Assembly (NCBI RefSeq): GCF_009832905.1
Contig: NZ_CP047135.1
Coordinates: 412,001-476,000 of the forward strand
Reading direction: 5' to 3'
From: Stenotrophomonas sp. 364
Lineage (GTDB): Bacteria; Pseudomonadota; Gammaproteobacteria; Xanthomonadales; Xanthomonadaceae
Length of the DNA: 64,000 nucleotides
Position numbers and translations under genes: made by a program. Below, piece by piece: positions 26,019 to 32,780 of this stretch (positions are counted from its first letter, which is position 1; each line of letters starts with the position of its first letter). A model generated the notes under the pieces. That model searched no databases, had not been told where the DNA came from, and saw only the letters and a list, made by a program, of their open reading frames with translations.

Positions 26019-27038
26019 TCAGGGGGCAATGGCGCAGCGCGCCTCGGCGCTGGCCTCGGCATGCGGCAGGCCGGCGGCAAGCGCATTGAAATAGTCGGTG
26101 GTCAGCGCGATCTGGCTGGCGGCGTCGTCGGCGCGGTTGACCACCGCGCGGAAGGCGGCGTTCTCCGGCCGGTCCTTGGCGTACCAGCCCAAGTGCTTGC
26201 GCGCGATGCGCACACCCTGCGCTTCGCCGTAGAAGTCGTGCAGCGCGTGCAGGTGGCCCAGCAGTATGTCGCGCACCTCGTCCAGCGAGGGCGGGGCGAG
26301 CAGTTCACCGGTGGCCAGGTAATGCGCCACTTCACGGAAGATCCAGGGCCGACCCTGCGCGGCCCGGCCGATCATCACCGCGTCCACGCCGGTCACGGCC
26401 AGCACGTGGGCCGCCTTCTGCGGCGAATCGATATCGCCATTGGCCAGCACCGGAATGCGCAGCGCGGCCTTGATCGCGGCGATGGTCTCGTACTCGGCCT
26501 GGCCGGTGTAGTGCTGGTCGCGGGTGCGGCCATGCACTGCCAGCGCGGCAATGCCGCTGTCCTCGGCGATATGGGCGATGCGTGGGCCGTTGCGGTGGTC
26601 GCAGTCCCAGCCCGTGCGGATCTTCAGCGTCACCGGCACGTCCACCGCCTGCACCACGGCAGTAAGGATGCGTGCCACCAGATCCTCGTCGCGCATCAGC
26701 GCCGAACCGGCCCACGCGTTGCAGACCTTCTTGGCCGGGCAGCCCATGTTGATGTCGATGATCTGCGCGCCGTGGTCCACGTTGTAGCGCGCGGCCTCGG
26801 CCAGCTGCTGCGGCTCCGTGCCGGCGATCTGCACGCTGATCGGATCCGGCTCGCCGGCATGGTCCATGCGATGGAGCGACTTGCGGGTGGTCCAGAAGCG
26901 CGGATCGGAGATGGTCATCTCCGAGGCGGCCAAGCCCGCGCCCAGCCGTTTGCACAGCAGGCGGAAGGGTTTGTCGGTGACACCGGCCATCGGTGCCAGC
27001 ACCACGTTGGGCTGGATGTTGTAGGGGCCAATCTGCAT
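26019..27038 (-). CDS. dusB: tRNA-dihydrouridine synthase B
   Basis: FMN enzyme that reduces uridine to dihydrouridine in tRNA. The 339-residue sequence starts IGPYNIQPNVVLAPMAGVTD, the DusB-type FMN site. DINMGCPAKKVCNAWAGSAL holds the catalytic Cys100. VHGRTRDQHYTG and GADGVMIGRAAQGRPW-like MIGRAAQGRPWIF are the phosphate-binding segments. The C-terminal helical domain binds tRNA. Family members usually have Asn-Arg after KKV; here it reads CNAW, a small deviation. In many bacteria dusB heads the fis operon, but no fis follows here. Confidence 0.95.
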   Translation of the reverse strand: MQIGPYNIQPNVVLAPMAGVTDKPFRLLCKRLGAGLAASEMTISDPRFWTTRKSLHRMDHAGEPDPISVQIAGTEPQQLAEAARYNVDHGAQIIDINMGCPAKKVCNAWAGSALMRDEDLVARILTAVVQAVDVPVTLKIRTGWDCDHRNGPRIAHIAEDSGIAALAVHGRTRDQHYTGQAEYETIAAIKAALRIPVLANGDIDSPQKAAHVLAVTGVDAVMIGRAAQGRPWIFREVAHYLATGELLAPPSLDEVRDILLGHLHALHDFYGEAQGVRIARKHLGWYAKDRPENAAFRAVVNRADDAASQIALTTDYFNALAAGLPHAEASAEARCAIAP

Positions 27039-27210
27039 GCGCGCATTGTAGAACGCCCCGGCCGTGCCGGCCGCGCGCGGGGGCTGCCTGTTCAGGCCGA
27101 TCGGGAAGGGCCTGATGCGCTCCGGTCATGAGCACATGCTTGACGATTGCTTCCGTCGCCCCCAATGGCGGCTGATGCTGGTCAGTTGGCTGGTGCGGCG
27201 CCGGCGGTGG

Positions 27211-27957
27211 TCAGGGCGCCGGACCACACGCGTAGGCCAACACGGCCAGATGCCGCTGCGGGTCGAGCCCGAGCAGGGCCAGTACGGCGGCATCGTCGAA
27301 GGAGCCGATCGCGCAGCCGGCGGCGTTCATCCCGGCCACTTGCTGCCCGAGTGCGCCCAGCCAGACCCCGGCCTCGATCAATACGAAGCGGCCACCGCGC
27401 TCGCCGTACTTGGCCAGCGTGCCGGCCGGCTCGGCGATCAGGAACAGCACGGCCGCCGGGCGTTCGGGCCAATCCACGCCGAGCAGCCCGGACAGCGCCG
27501 GCCATGCGGGGCAGGGCCCCACAGGCACCAGCGCATGCCCGATCGGGTCGTACCAATGGATGCCCGGCTCTGCGGCAATCGTATCGTCGGCGCCGTACAG
27601 CGCGGCATAGGCCTGGATCGGATACTTGGCCCCACCGGACGGCAGGCGCCGGGTGTCACTGTCGCCGGGTCGGGCCCGCAGCGGGGCGAGCACGCGGCCC
27701 AGCTCCTGCGCGCCCCAGCGGGCCACACCGAAGCGGCGGCCACTGTGGCGTTGCGCCAGCGCATCGCCGGGCTGCACCGGGTCGGGCAGGGCGATGCCGG
27801 CGGCGGCATGCACCGGTCGGGGCGGCGGGGCGATGCGCGCGGCATCGTCGGCGATGCGCGCGCGCATCATCTCCGCACGTGCGGGGTTGAGTTCGCCGTT
27901 GTGCCAGAACAGGTGGAAGGCGGGGGCATCGTGCCAGGGAGACGGTGGTGAGGGCAT
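27211..27957 (-). CDS. SagB-type FMN dehydrogenase (azoline oxidase)
   Basis: A 248-residue nitroreductase-fold protein of the SagB/ThcOx type, which oxidises azolines to aromatic thiazoles/oxazoles in TOMM peptides. Matching features are RHSGRRFG (70-77), RLPSGGAKYPIQAYAAL (104-120) and YGERGGRFVLIEAG followed by Q205 and a C-terminal CGPAP. The ATG at 27957 is preferred since a longer frame reads through the YcaO gene's end without homology. It is the last gene of a four-gene operon, 13 bases after the YcaO stop codon. A role in peptide maturation rests on this context. Confidence 0.85.
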   Translation of the reverse strand: MPSPPSPWHDAPAFHLFWHNGELNPARAEMMRARIADDAARIAPPPRPVHAAAGIALPDPVQPGDALAQRHSGRRFGVARWGAQELGRVLAPLRARPGDSDTRRLPSGGAKYPIQAYAALYGADDTIAAEPGIHWYDPIGHALVPVGPCPAWPALSGLLGVDWPERPAAVLFLIAEPAGTLAKYGERGGRFVLIEAGVWLGALGQQVAGMNAAGCAIGSFDDAAVLALLGLDPQRHLAVLAYACGPAP

Positions 27958-27970
27958 GGGGTGGCCTGCT

Positions 27971-29290
27971 TCAGCCCAAGGGATGCGGGAAGGGGTTGGG
28001 CGCTTCGCCGCCGTGCGGCACGCCGGGATAGCGCCACGCCACGTCGCGGCAACGCCCCCCCAGGAACGGTGCACGCTCGTCGGCATGCAGGCCGCTGAGC
28101 TGCGGCGACAGCACCCGCATCACCCGCACGCCGGCTGCGGCTACGTCAGTGGTGGTCAACTCGCGGTAGTACAACGCGATCCCGGCCTGGCCGAGACGTC
28201 GCCGCAGCAGATCCAGCTCGTCACCGGCGCGCAGCGCCGGCGGGCGCAACGCAGCCACCGTCGGCGACACCTGCAACGGGCTGTCATGCGTGCGCTTCAG
28301 CAGGGGCACGCTCGCCCACAGGTCCGGACGCAGGGTATAGAACGCGGCATGTTCGTCGAAGCTGCGCAGCGCGGCAGGCTCGCGCGGCAGCCGCGCGCTG
28401 TCATGTCGACACAGATGGGCGGCGAAGGTCAGCGCCTGCTGCCACTCCAGCAGCGCTTTGTGCAGCGCTTCGGCCGGGTCGGCGCGGCAGGCGATGCCCA
28501 GGACATGGCGGGGGCGGCCTTCAAACGGCATGCCACCGGCCACGGCGATCACCGGGTGCGGGTTCCAATGCTGGGTCAGGTCGAAGGCCTGCAGCTGGCC
28601 CCCGTGCTTGCTGGCATGCGCGTGCCAGGACGCCGGCAGGGCGATGCGGCGGCCCGCCACGCCATTGATCCACGTCACCGCCAGTGCGTCGCGTTCCAGC
28701 AGCTCCTGGGCAGCACGCAGCAGCGCCAGCCACTGGCCATCGCGGCCATCCCGCCAGGCGGCCAGCCCGCTGGAGGTCGACGGCAGCCGTGCCTGCCCGT
28801 GCCGAGGGCCTAGCCCGACCAGCTCCTGCGGGACCCACGTCACCTGGTTGTCGTCCAGGGAATACACGGCCGCGAACAGATCCTCGTCGTGCTCGGGCAT
28901 CGGCCACGGGAAGCCCGGGGTTGCGCGCTGACCTGCCGAAAACAAGGCGAACGCCGACTCGTCCAGGCGTTGCGACGGCGTCAACGTATCCCGGCGGCGT
29001 ACCGCCAGCGTGACCTGTGCCGCGGCCAGCCGCTCCAGCGCCTCGGCAACGGCTCCATCGGCGGCGGCAGCGGCATCCAGGCCGACGGCGCCGGACACGC
29101 TCTGCCAGGGATTGGCCGGGTCGGCCGGGGTGGCGGCGTTGTGCACCCGGCGTCCCCCGAACAGCGGGCCGGTGGCATCGCAGGCATGGGCGTCGATCGG
29201 CTGCGCCGGACGTACCACCCCGCAGCGCGCACGGGCCGCGCCGTGCAGCAGGTGCGAGGACAGCGTGGGCGGGAGGGGCGCGGCCGCCAT
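27971..29290 (-). CDS. YcaO-domain cyclodehydratase (SagD-like)
   Basis: A 439-residue YcaO-family enzyme, expected to use ATP to cyclise Ser/Thr/Cys side chains onto the peptide backbone. ATP-site features are VAEALERL (81-88), SSGLAAW (173-179) and AAQELLERDAL (193-203). The C-terminus ends in alternating prolines (PNPFPHPLG), the PxPxP tail that SagD/McbD-type cyclodehydratases need for catalysis. A GTG one codon upstream of the ATG is also possible. It lies 13 bases after the precursor-like gene and 13 bases before the SagB-type gene, all on one strand. Confidence 0.87.
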   Translation of the reverse strand: MAAAPLPPTLSSHLLHGAARARCGVVRPAQPIDAHACDATGPLFGGRRVHNAATPADPANPWQSVSGAVGLDAAAAADGAVAEALERLAAAQVTLAVRRRDTLTPSQRLDESAFALFSAGQRATPGFPWPMPEHDEDLFAAVYSLDDNQVTWVPQELVGLGPRHGQARLPSTSSGLAAWRDGRDGQWLALLRAAQELLERDALAVTWINGVAGRRIALPASWHAHASKHGGQLQAFDLTQHWNPHPVIAVAGGMPFEGRPRHVLGIACRADPAEALHKALLEWQQALTFAAHLCRHDSARLPREPAALRSFDEHAAFYTLRPDLWASVPLLKRTHDSPLQVSPTVAALRPPALRAGDELDLLRRRLGQAGIALYYRELTTTDVAAAGVRVMRVLSPQLSGLHADERAPFLGGRCRDVAWRYPGVPHGGEAPNPFPHPLG

Positions 29291-29303
29291 CACGCGGCGC
29301 GGT

Positions 29304-29873
29304 TCACTTCAGCACACCCAGCCAGAGCATCATCTCCGCGGCGGCAGCGACGAACGTGCCCAGCAGCAGGCCGATGCCGACGCCGATGCCGCTGCCGAGC
29401 GAACGCCCTGACCGCTCGTAGACGGTGGCGTAGATGCCAACGATCACCGCAACGGCGACAAACAGGCCGAATATCACGTTGGCAGCGCCCATGACGCCGC
29501 CGGCGATCACGGCCAACGGCACCGCGAACGCACCCAGCAGCTTGCGTTTGGTTCGGCTCATCGGAACCGGGGCAGGCGGCATGGCGTGGCCAGCGTCCGG
29601 GGCGACGACCGGTTCCGGCGGCGGCGCATCCGGCCAGAGCGTCGGCTGGTCCGGAAGGCCGGTATTGCTGGCGCCGGTATCATCGCTGGCCGGGGTGTCG
29701 CGGCCGGTCGTTGCGATGGGTCCCAGCGAGCCGAGTACCACCGCCGACAGCGCCGAGGCGCCGATCAGGGTGACGATGCAGGAACTGCATGTGGTCGATG
29801 TCGAACCGCCACCGGCGGCGGCAAGGTCCTGGCGCGACGCGCTTGCATCGAACTGGTTGGGCAGACGGTACAT
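29304..29873 (-). CDS. Candidate TOMM substrate: small protein with Ser/Thr/Cys-rich segment and membrane domain
   Basis: A 189-residue protein not recognised as a known family. Residues 1-20 are polar and could be a leader. G21-G22-G23 is followed by STSTTCSSC (24-32), a heterocyclisable run like TOMM cores, then a hydrophobic segment (33-51). A Pro/Asp-rich linker (52-105) leads to three membrane helices (about 112-130, 132-152, 161-187). The ATG follows ACGGAGTGACCGT, a good ribosome-binding site. It sits between the E1-like and YcaO genes. It could be the modified substrate itself, or a membrane/immunity protein that only resembles one. Confidence 0.65.
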   Translation of the reverse strand: MYRLPNQFDASASRQDLAAAGGGSTSTTCSSCIVTLIGASALSAVVLGSLGPIATTGRDTPASDDTGASNTGLPDQPTLWPDAPPPEPVVAPDAGHAMPPAPVPMSRTKRKLLGAFAVPLAVIAGGVMGAANVIFGLFVAVAVIVGIYATVYERSGRSLGSGIGVGIGLLLGTFVAAAAEMMLWLGVLK

Positions 29874-29921
29874 ACGGTCACTCCGTTGACGAATGAGGAA
29901 ACGCCCGACACGTGCGTACGA

Positions 29922-30782
29922 TCATACCGGTCGCCCGGTGCGCCACGGTAACGACAGGGGTTCGGCCGGCCAGGTCGCACCGCCCTGGCAGGCGGGGCAC
30001 CACGGCAGTCGCAGCACCCGGTCGCGCTCGCCGTGCAGGCGATGCAGGTCGAGCCAGACACTGCGTTCGAGATAGCCCAGCAAGAGGGCTGGCTGATCCA
30101 GCAATGGCGCGACCAGCGCCGCGATGCGCGCCGGCTGCGCTGCGACCGCCGGCATCGTCGGCACGACCGCTTCGCCCCAGCGGCGCAGCACCCGGTTGCC
30201 CAGGCAATACACGCAGGCGGTCTGGCCGGGCACTACATAGGGCCCAAGCGCCAGTGTGTGGTGATAGCTGATGTCCACCAGCAGATGCGGTTGTGCCGGC
30301 ATCTGCGCGCGGTAGCGGTCCAAGGCCTGTTCCCAGCCGAGGCCATGCCGGACCAGCACCCGCAGGTCGGCCTCGGCGTGGGCATCGACGCGCTGCAGAT
30401 CCGCGCTGGCATGCTGGTCGAAGGCCTCGGCCAAGCCGGGCAGGGGCGTACCGAGCCAATCGAGCGCATAGCGCCTTGCCTTGCGCGCGGCATGCAACGG
30501 CACCAGCACGCCCAGGCGCATCAACTGGCGGGTCGCCGGGCCGCACTCGGCGTCGTCCTGCACGGACGCCAAGGTGTCGTTCTCCCAGTGCGCGAGGATG
30601 CGTTCGACGACGCTTGGCGTATCGGCCTCATCCACCACGTACACCTCATCGGCGCCACCGGAGACCAGCAGCAGCCGGCGCTGCGCATGGGTCTGCGAAA
30701 ACAGGGCCCAGGCCGGATTGCGCGTCCAGCGCGGTGCGTCGACGTGCGCGCCTGCCTGTTCCTGACTGCCTGCTGCTGCCAC
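29922..30782 (-). CDS. E1-like TOMM cyclodehydratase partner protein (SagC/ocin-ThiF-like)
   Basis: A 286-residue protein (from GTG 30782) that should bind the leader peptide and deliver it to the YcaO enzyme. Residues 20-100 resemble a RiPP recognition element (RRLLLVSGGADEVYVVDE, then RQLMRLGVLVPL). The C-terminal half is E1/ThiF-like with the zinc tetrathiolate pair C190-x2-C193 (PGQTACVYCLGNR) and C262-x2-C265 (WCPACQGG). A GTG at 30839 would add a hydrophobic stretch and leave only 19 bases to the divergent gene. GTG 30782 follows CAGGGA and leaves room for promoters, so it is preferred. Confidence 0.82.
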   Translation of the reverse strand: MAAAGSQEQAGAHVDAPRWTRNPAWALFSQTHAQRRLLLVSGGADEVYVVDEADTPSVVERILAHWENDTLASVQDDAECGPATRQLMRLGVLVPLHAARKARRYALDWLGTPLPGLAEAFDQHASADLQRVDAHAEADLRVLVRHGLGWEQALDRYRAQMPAQPHLLVDISYHHTLALGPYVVPGQTACVYCLGNRVLRRWGEAVVPTMPAVAAQPARIAALVAPLLDQPALLLGYLERSVWLDLHRLHGERDRVLRLPWCPACQGGATWPAEPLSLPWRTGRPV

Positions 30783-30858
30783 TGCGTACAGTCCCTGTAT
30801 TGGCCAAAGCACAAGAATAGCGGCAAACAGGCGTTCCACGTTCTGCTACGGTGCGCGC

Positions 30859-31500
30859 ATGTCCCTACCGCCCGTTGCCACCACTTCGGTTCCCCAGCCG
30901 CCCTGGCGCGAGGCGATGCTGTGGATGCTGCTGCTCGGCGCAATGTTCATCCATGGCTACAGCTGGACCAACCACTGGGCCGCCAGCCAGGCGCATACCT
31001 ACAGCCTGCACGGGCCTTGGGATGATGCGATCCCGTTCTGGGCGTGGACGATCTGGCCCTACCTGGCGCTGAATCTGCTGTACCCGCTGACGTTCTTCAT
31101 TTTCCCGACCCGTTCGGCCCTGCGCCGCCATGCGCTGGCCATCGCCCTGGTGCAGGCGGCCTGCATGCTCGCCTTCGTGTGCTGGCCGACCGGCAACGTG
31201 CGTGCCATGCCGCAGCCGGATGGCGCGAGCGGGCTGTTGTTCGCACAGCTGCGGGCCTTCGAGGCGCCGTTCAACATGGCGCCGTCGCTGCATGCCGCGG
31301 TGCTGCTACTGGTGTGGCAGGCGTGGCGGCGCTGGTTGCAGGCCGACGCGGCGCCCCTGCGTTGGCTGTGGCACGGCGCCTGTGGCCTGATCCTGGTCTC
31401 GACCGTGACCACCTGGCAGCACGATCTGCTGGACGTGCTTGCCGGACTGGTGCTTGGGGCGCTGGCGCTGTGGATCACGCGGGCCCCAGTTTTGCGGTAG
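30859..31500 (+). CDS. PAP2-superfamily membrane phosphatase/transferase
   Basis: A 213-residue inner-membrane protein with about six hydrophobic helices. The PAP2 active-site segments are partly recognisable: NMAPSLHAAVLLL (motif 2, SLH) and TWQHDLLDVLAG (motif 3, with His and Asp). The first motif (KxxxxxxRP) is not evident, which fits the inositol-phosphotransferase-like (Aur1/Ipt1) branch. Such proteins act on lipid phosphates, but the substrate is unknown. It is divergent from the TOMM-like operon with a very short intergenic region, so promoters must overlap or be shared. Confidence 0.85.
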   Translation: MSLPPVATTSVPQPPWREAMLWMLLLGAMFIHGYSWTNHWAASQAHTYSLHGPWDDAIPFWAWTIWPYLALNLLYPLTFFIFPTRSALRRHALAIALVQAACMLAFVCWPTGNVRAMPQPDGASGLLFAQLRAFEAPFNMAPSLHAAVLLLVWQAWRRWLQADAAPLRWLWHGACGLILVSTVTTWQHDLLDVLAGLVLGALALWITRAPVLR

Positions 31501-31555
31501 GCATCGTGCATTCACCGCTCCACGATGAGTACCTGTCGCCTCTCGCGTATGGCCG

Positions 31556-31714
31556 GTGCAGGCGCCGTTTGGTTCGGCGGGCGTCTCCGATCGGGCCGGT
31601 CGCGAGCGTGAGGGCCCCGTAGCCGCCGGTAGGCCCCTGGTGCAAATGTCCCCCGGCCGCAGGGCGGCCTCCTCCTTTATTTTGCCCAGGAGCCTACCGG
31701 CGGCTACGGGGCCC
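31556..31714. repeat. Long palindrome, family 1 (copy A), with conserved flank
   Basis: A perfect 23-bp inverted repeat (31612-31634 with 31692-31714), extended inside by short helices, encloses a loop with the hairpin ggccgcagggcggcc and the motif cctcctcctttattt. The left flank (31556-31618) matches, in opposite orientation, the flank of copy B at 39886-39941. The arms of A and B are unrelated in sequence. The rest of the PAP2-to-kinase gap (31501-31555, 31715-31762) shows nothing recognisable. Confidence 0.75.
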
Positions 31715-31762
31715 AGCGACCGACCCACCAACAACCGCGCCTGCAAAGGGTCAACGCAGGCT

Positions 31763-31793
31763 TAAAAAAAAGGCCAGCGCGAACGCTGGCCTT
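31763..31793 (-). terminator. Terminator of the transporter-kinase operon
   Basis: On the minus strand GGCCAGCG-TTCG-CGCTGGCC is followed by eight T residues, 22 bases after the kinase stop codon. This is a textbook intrinsic terminator. Confidence 0.92.
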
Positions 31794-31814
31794 GGTACAC
31801 GTCAACGGTGACGC

Positions 31815-32780
31815 TTACTTGGTTTCGGCATCACCCGGGGTGAAGTGCGGCATCGCCACGGCGGCGCCTTCCTTCTCGGTGGAGCGGCCGGCGAACTGGT
31901 TGGCAAACCGCACGTGGCGGATGAAGGCCGCGTCCGGGTCCTGCGCGATCGAGGCACACAGGGCGCCGTTGAACGCATCGCCGGCACCGGTGGTGTCCAG
32001 TACCTGCACCTGCTCGGCGCCCACCCGATAGTACGGCTGGGTATCGCCGCGCGGATTGTCTTCGGCGTGGGACACGAACACGCCCACCGAGCCCAGCGTC
32101 ACCACCACGGTGCCGGTGCCGGTGAGCTTGCGGCACAGCGCATGCAGGCTGGCACCGTCGAGCGCGGCCACGTCGTTGGCATCCACACGCTCGCCCACAT
32201 GGCGGCCGAGCAGGGCGGCGAACTCGGTCTCGTTGGGGGTTAGCACGTCGGCCAGCTTGAGCAGGCCGATGCTGGACGGTGCGTCGGCCGGGGCCGCGTT
32301 GAGCACGGTGGTGACACCGGCCTCACGGGCCAGCGCCAGCGCCGCTTCAATGGTTTCCACCGGCGATTCCAGCTGGGCCAGTACCACCTTCGCGTCGCCC
32401 AGCAGATCGCGCTGGGCCTGCACGAAGCCCACGCTCAGCGCGGCATTGGCGCCCGGGCCGATCACGATGGTGTTGCGGCCGCGGGCGTCCACATAGATGC
32501 CACCGGTGCCGGTGGGCTCGGTGCTGGCCTCGGCGGTCAGCGCGAACCCGTCCTGGGCGGCCAGGCCGCGTGCCATCGCACCGCCGGCATCGTCGCCCAG
32601 CGCGCACAGGAAGGTGGTGGCGGCGCCAGCACGGCACGCGGCCACGGCCTGATTGAAGCCCTTGCCGCCGGGACCGGTGCTGTAGCGCCCGGCGATGGTT
32701 GCGCCCGGGGCCGGGAGCGACTCGCAACGCCAGACATGATCCACGTTGAAGGAACCGACGACGACGACTTTGCTACTCAT
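31815..32780 (-). CDS. PfkB-family kinase, ribokinase-like
   Basis: A 321-residue sugar/nucleoside kinase. PfkB signatures are GGKGFNQAVAACRAGA near 38 and DTTGAGDAFNGAL near 268-280, whose Asp is the catalytic base. VVVGSFNVDHVW at the start and LNAAPAD in the middle are ribokinase-like. Because the gene follows a concentrative nucleoside transporter by 26 bases, a nucleoside (inosine, guanosine or adenosine) is as likely a substrate as ribose. A strong terminator closes the unit. Confidence 0.9.
   Translation of the reverse strand: MSSKVVVVGSFNVDHVWRCESLPAPGATIAGRYSTGPGGKGFNQAVAACRAGAATTFLCALGDDAGGAMARGLAAQDGFALTAEASTEPTGTGGIYVDARGRNTIVIGPGANAALSVGFVQAQRDLLGDAKVVLAQLESPVETIEAALALAREAGVTTVLNAAPADAPSSIGLLKLADVLTPNETEFAALLGRHVGERVDANDVAALDGASLHALCRKLTGTGTVVVTLGSVGVFVSHAEDNPRGDTQPYYRVGAEQVQVLDTTGAGDAFNGALCASIAQDPDAAFIRHVRFANQFAGRSTEKEGAAVAMPHFTPGDAETK

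Follow-up and report, generated by a model that had tools for sequence, protein, structure and literature searches.

A five-gene YcaO unit of Stenotrophomonas with a probable membrane-protein substrate

The window analysed here is a stretch of 64,000 nucleotides from Stenotrophomonas sp. 364 (contig NZ_CP047135.1, positions 412,001 to 476,000; all coordinates below are those of the window), taken from a genome of 4.84 Mb in a single contig. Between dus and a ribokinase gene it carries a unit of five genes, which resembles the machinery for thiazole/oxazole-modified microcins (TOMMs) and linear azol(in)e-containing peptides (LAPs). Four of these genes had been described in a first-pass annotation as a TOMM-like cluster on one strand, and all four were present on the minus strand, transcribed in the order E1-like gene, gene of the probable substrate (termed PRE), YcaO gene and SagB-type dehydrogenase gene. 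Their placement stood, two listed starts did not: the dehydrogenase begins at 27957 and not at 28086, since the first 43 residues of the listed open reading frame (ORF), which overlap the YcaO gene, are out of the dehydrogenase frame in relatives, and the gap of 13 bases given before the YcaO gene fits an ATG at 29290, not the listed GTG at 29293. The fifth gene diverges from the E1-like gene and codes for a PAP2-type membrane enzyme; it was counted as a member because it is co-inherited with PRE and also adjoins the E1-like gene in a second genus. The features are:

27211..27957, minus strand: SagB-type flavin mononucleotide dehydrogenase, 248 amino acids; matches to TIGR03605, PF00881 and sequences of the Protein Data Bank (PDB), start set by comparison with relatives
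27971..29290, minus strand: YcaO protein, 439 amino acids from the ATG at 29290, C-terminus NPFPHPLG; PF02624, TIGR03604 and tree
29304..29873, minus strand: PRE, 189 amino acids, probable substrate; alignments, codon analysis, hydropathy and a structure model of low to middling confidence
29778..29804, minus strand: residues 24-32 of PRE, nine Ser/Thr/Cys codons in a row, proposed heterocycle site
29922..30839, minus strand: E1-like partner protein, at most 305 amino acids, true start unsure, two CxxC pairs; TIGR03882 and profile match
30859..31500, plus strand: PAP2_3-type integral membrane phosphatase or transferase, divergent from the E1-like gene, fifth member of the unit; PF14378
27188..31814, no strand: stretch with the unit between dus and ribokinase, left edge near 27188; 31814 is not a fixed edge

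The E1-like protein has the two CxxC pairs claimed for it, CVYC at residues 209-212 and CPAC at 281-284, both invariant in 12 of 12 aligned orthologs. A profile of the protein matched five fused TOMM proteins locally over residues 163-293 (E 2.9e-9), with both CxxC pairs in register, and globally over 32-305; these features argue for a TOMM partner protein. Residues 1-35 are conserved within the genus and unmatched in the second genus, thus the start of the protein is unsure. The dehydrogenase reached 25.1 bits against PF00881, which is above the cut-off, and matched the sequences of McbC, BmdC and CyaGox in the PDB, its stretch AKYGERG being aligned with the KYG of BmdC. Dehydrogenases of the SagB/McbC type are present in many TOMM systems, not in all. 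By its sequence the protein of the unit belongs to this type, and it would be expected to turn azolines into azoles.

The YcaO protein, the only one found in the genome, matched PF02624 with 106 bits (cut-off 25.7) and had no sequence match in the PDB. Its C-terminus ends in the alternating prolines noticed before, and the copy of the second genus ends in NPLPHPLG. In a YcaO tree the four sampled proteins of the unit formed one clade (100/100 support), which was joined at modest support (83/86) with the TOMM-type proteins L097, L098, L101 and L008; the first three exceed the TIGR03604 cut-off, the last is another Stenotrophomonas YcaO protein from genome G047. Rows with TfuA neighbours and two RimO-like rows of about 600 residues stood apart from the unit; the group names were given by us from gene layout and length, and the TfuA labels without a profile, from the appearance of the neighbouring ORF. 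One row labelled as TfuA-neighboured (L113) sits on a very long, misplaced branch. The stem of the unit measures 2.26 changes per column, and because this stem and some neighbouring branches are long, the exact tree position is unsure. A place in the RimO-modifying or thioamide clade, named beforehand as an outcome that would speak against a TOMM machine, was not seen. The neighbours PRE, E1, SagB, PAP2 and dus as well as the tree position differ from TfuA-associated thioamide YcaO proteins; the RimO/uL16 type is set apart by the length of 439 amino acids, the E1-like and SagB-type partners and the distance to the 600-residue rows. Sequence and layout point to a TOMM-type cyclodehydratase.

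PRE is most likely the substrate of these enzymes, judged from its sequence. Residues 1-32 read MYRLPNQFDASASRQDLAAAGGGSTSTTCSSC. The protein starts with the motif MYRLPxQFD, followed by a spacer, AAGGG and the run STSTTCSSC, which borders on a transmembrane helix; behind this helix come a hypervariable linker and more helices. The N-terminus of PRE would correspond to the leader and the Ser/Thr/Cys core of a TOMM precursor. The run is identical in 11 of 11 genus members and shows a single S-to-T exchange in the second genus. Among the 381 six-frame ORFs of at least 60 amino acids in the window no other has a run that reaches nine Ser/Thr/Cys residues; runs of 7 or 8 occur in six other ORFs. 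The N-terminus is under selection at the protein level: across columns 1-32 of the 11 genus sequences the amino acid varies in 1 of 32 columns and a silent change is present in 19 of 32, and the nonsynonymous share of codon pairs was 0.010 in these columns, compared with 0.509 for the linker and 0.158 for the C-terminal part. A conserved RNA element behind the frozen 5' end was rejected because of the 19 silently variable codons. In the copy of the second genus, with an overall identity of 38 %, MYRLPxQFD and AAGGGSTxTTCSSC(I/V)VTL are kept and the spacer is changed. Two kept motifs around a changing spacer thus follow the logic of recognition motif, spacer and modification site.

The hydropathy of PRE presented 4 or 5 hydrophobic windows per row, some of them overlapping, in 12 of 12 rows, and in all of them the first window begins at most three residues from the second Cys. 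The structure model placed helices at 30-47, 107-124, 132-154 and 159-188 (mean predicted local distance difference test, pLDDT, of 55). All 12 copies retain the C-terminal domain, and basic residues lie before helix 2 and after helix 3. No Pfam or NCBIfam family, TIGR04222 included, matched PRE at E 0.1, and the first 48 residues had no second match anywhere in the genome at E 10.

The PAP2 protein matched PF14378 with 27 bits, at the cut-off; PSLH is present in 5 of 5 aligned rows, and the four that are full-length also have QHDxxD. Orthologs with at least 86 % identity occur in exactly those 11 of the 91 genus genomes that have PRE and in 0 of the other 80, of which 50 hold a PAP2 relative of at most 41 % identity, mostly in a longer frame, and 30 are without a match; the 11 genomes are related, so the co-occurrence is not independent. 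The claim that no exporter, protease or immunity gene lies nearby held for the first two between dus and ribokinase, while the part on immunity did not take account of this membrane gene, for which no role is assigned. PADLOC returned nothing for the five proteins. The gap between the E1-like and the PAP2 gene (30740-30860) contains blocks of TAGCAGA and GCCGCTATYCT in most genus rows and in the second genus. They are possibly a shared promoter; a consensus scan of 26900-31900 gave no match to a sigma-70-like promoter.

PRE was searched in 91 genomes of the genus, 395 of the family and 52 of the second genus, which belongs to the same family, the E1-like protein in 369 genomes of the class, the YcaO protein in 101 relatives and 398 genomes of the order, and TIGR03604 in 299 genomes of the phylum. 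The family, class, order and phylum sets were even draws from larger groups; for PRE in the family, E1 in the class and YcaO in the order scoring was limited to the 4 to 8 best candidates of each genome, and misses are possible. Eleven of the 91 genus genomes (source genome counted) carry PRE, plus one chance-level match, and the YcaO, SagB-like, E1-like and PAP2 genes accompany it in 11 of 11. One of the 52 genomes of the second genus (G392) has the order PAP2, E1, PRE, YcaO, SagB, with identities of 58 % (PAP2), 55 % (E1), 38 % (PRE), 68 % (YcaO) and 54-59 % (SagB). In the 11 genus genomes and in G392 PRE lies between the E1-like and the YcaO gene, inside the operon in all 12 carriers. The conserved synteny with the gene at 29304 that the first-pass annotation had proposed as a check is borne out, and the opposite outcome, a four-gene unit without conservation, is refuted by its retention in two genera. 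The E1 search across the class yielded the source genome only. Two peptide patterns, scanned against GTDB contigs, gave eight loci, all from Stenotrophomonas (S. rhizophila, S. bentonitica, unnamed species and one labelled S. maltophilia). They are no extra evidence of spread, because most are apparently the same genomes as in the genus set.

Several matches were discarded. The PRE match in G239 (E 3.7e-4), which coincides with a multihaem gene and contains an internal stop, was taken as chance. The one in G047 (E 6.2e-4) is a different small membrane protein, and the YcaO protein of that genome is part of a different TOMM-like cluster: in this member of the genus without the unit (L008/L035) a YcaO protein with an alternating-proline end stands between two paired-CxxC proteins. 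Order-level YcaO relatives in G1206, G1210 and G1323 scored 24 to 85 bits, and in the regions of G1206 and G1210 the other genes of the unit were represented by no more than a weak match to E1 (L134, E 5e-7) and a match to PRE at chance level (L135, E 0.76).

In the window only the five unit genes lie between dus and ribokinase, and all five are also found there in the eight named loci. Exporter and protease genes are absent from this interval in the window; the remainder of the genome was not searched for them. Apart from a small gene beside dus in two of the eight loci (L023, L028), which codes for about 140-160 amino acids, the gaps contain no coding-like sequence. L070 and L074, which are without the unit, also have a small hydrophobic gene at this place that is similar by eye, and for this reason the gene was not counted as a member. 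Thirty loci were examined among the 91 best dus matches. Eleven have a SagB-like gene upstream of dus; of the 19 without the block, 17 have the ribokinase gene within 1.5 kb, one has a partial match and one is at a contig edge. Seven loci without the unit were compared with the edges in the window, and the homology upstream of dus ends at 27187-27188 in the three longest matches. The side next to dus looks as if it were a place of gene turnover. On the dus tree the presence of the unit needs four changes, of which well-supported branches force one; this tree of a single gene, too weak for counting gains and losses, is compatible with a block that was retained or lost as a whole in a part of the genus.

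We propose that the unit encodes an azol(in)e-forming machine for the N-terminus of PRE and that the product, a membrane protein with several helices, probably stays in the producer, with a probability of about 0.58. The E1-like protein would bind the motif MYRLPxQFD, the YcaO protein would use ATP to cyclise Ser, Thr and Cys residues of STSTTCSSC to azolines, and the SagB-type enzyme would oxidise part of these to azoles. Of the roughly four transmembrane helices the first begins with the modified stretch, hence the product is probably a resident membrane protein, which may work alongside the PAP2-type enzyme. More tentatively, at less than even confidence, the rings could be a permanent part of the working protein and serve, at the surface of the membrane, as a cofactor of ribosomal origin that is used together with a dedicated PAP2-type lipid enzyme and not released as an antibiotic; it might, for instance, form a metal-active, redox-active or lipid-headgroup-binding site.

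A number of observations weigh against this proposal. The dehydrogenase scored 57.8 bits against TIGR03605 (SagB; cut-off 78.4), the E1-like protein 31.2 bits against TIGR03882 (cut-off 36.9) and the YcaO protein 138 bits against its best NCBIfam match TIGR03604 (cut-off 219); with all three below the curated cut-offs the proteins of the unit have to be seen as outlying members. The fork that joins the unit to TOMM-type YcaO proteins combines modest support with long branches, and four further TOMM-type YcaO proteins are in a neighbouring group of the tree. A recognition domain of the E1-like protein is plausible at about residues 45-108, a stretch covered by the global profile match, where three strands followed by helices were modelled, poorly, with a pLDDT of 36. 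A peptide could be released by cleavage at AAGGG, which stands ahead of the core. The basic residues around helices 2 and 3 would, by a simple charge rule, put the modified tail outside, and such a placement would need a transport of the tail. Finally, the sporadic presence (11 of 91 and 1 of 52 genomes) also fits a dispensable antimicrobial.

The most likely alternative is a secreted linear azol(in)e peptide of bacteriocin type, which we hold to be unlikely, though within reach. The first 48 residues of PRE would be leader and core, a housekeeping protease would cut after AAGGG and after the hydrophobic stretch, the C-terminal helices would serve as follower, self-protection or export domain, and the PAP2 protein would confer immunity. 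The leader-core layout with a Gly-rich boundary ahead of the Ser/Thr/Cys run suits this explanation, as do the hypervariable linker, which could be cut, the sporadic distribution and the co-inherited membrane gene. However, the unit comes without an exporter or a protease gene both in the window and in the eight named loci. The core does not vary among the 11 genomes, which are from different species, as one would not expect of the product of an arms race, and the C-terminal domain is retained in every copy. It is clearly improbable that the enzymes modify PRE and yield something other than azoles, such as unoxidised azolines, amidines or another YcaO product. The separate position of the unit YcaO, its long stem and the modest joining support would allow for it, so would the SagB and YcaO scores below the NCBIfam cut-offs; against it stand the oxidase, which is of the SagB type, has the KY pair and matches McbC, and a substrate stretch made up entirely of Ser, Thr and Cys. 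A substrate encoded elsewhere, with PRE as membrane partner or target, is very improbable: PRE has no family match and is large compared with usual TOMM precursors, but its N-terminus is single in the genome, it lies inside the operon in all carriers and it has the sole nine-residue Ser/Thr/Cys run among the ORFs of the window.

Machines of YcaO, E1-like and SagB-type proteins are known for small secreted or toxic peptides. The machinery of microcin B17 consists of McbB (E1-like), McbC (dehydrogenase) and McbD (YcaO); the unit likewise has separate proteins for the three functions, and McbC is a direct sequence match. The microcin precursor McbA, a small peptide, is secreted and has exporter and immunity genes of its own, whereas PRE has several transmembrane helices and the unit is without an exporter gene. 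Discrete cyclodehydratase and dehydrogenase proteins are also shared with the cytolysin TOMMs of the streptolysin S type, whose cores are, as in PRE, dense runs of cyclisable residues. Cytolysin clusters are reported to include ABC transporters and a CaaX-like protease (PMC4603692); the unit has neither, be it in the window or at the eight named loci. Membrane proteins of TIGR04222 beside MNIO enzymes are reported as putative multi-helix precursors of ribosomally synthesised and post-translationally modified peptides with a Cys-containing segment (PMC12452194). PRE resembles them as a multi-helix membrane precursor with such a segment, but their Cys-rich segment is C-proximal and the enzyme an iron oxidase, whereas the segment of PRE is N-terminal, the enzymes are YcaO and SagB and TIGR04222 does not match. 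Modification of working proteins by YcaO enzymes is reported for the thioamidation of McrA (PMC5589413) and of uL16 (PMC13063428). These would be parallels in which a YcaO enzyme acts on a protein that remains in the cell; the enzymes make thioamides, whereas the unit has E1-like and SagB-type partners and a YcaO protein apart from those of 600 residues. The NHLP precursors are reported to be long and recognised by an azoline-forming YcaO system (PMC12455567); their leaders are long structured domains, whereas PRE has a short leader before the core and a big domain after it.

The unit would work like a TOMM/LAP machine, as the enzyme features that can be checked in the sequences suggest in spite of scores below the NCBIfam cut-offs. 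Its most striking point is an azole site built into a membrane protein, which is unproven and likely enough to merit a direct test. The compact set is inherited as a block and its only visible substrate is a multi-helix membrane protein, which suggests that azole chemistry can equip a resident protein; the nearly frozen modification site next to a freely changing linker is part of this argument. The system has five genes and a single obvious substrate and predicts clear mass shifts, which opens the question to a direct test. In the open-access literature, screened by title and abstract, with subscription papers and preprints outside the scope, no paper was found that describes the unit.

As to signs of a mobile element, the GC content is 0.68-0.73 across the unit and 0.64-0.70 in its surroundings, and no telling direct repeats were found at the edges of the unit. 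The gap between the PAP2 and the ribokinase gene contains an inverted repeat at 31612-31714 with arms of 36 nt, which are 89 % complementary and 31 nt apart; its CCGGTAG motif is reminiscent of the GTAG palindromes of Stenotrophomonas.

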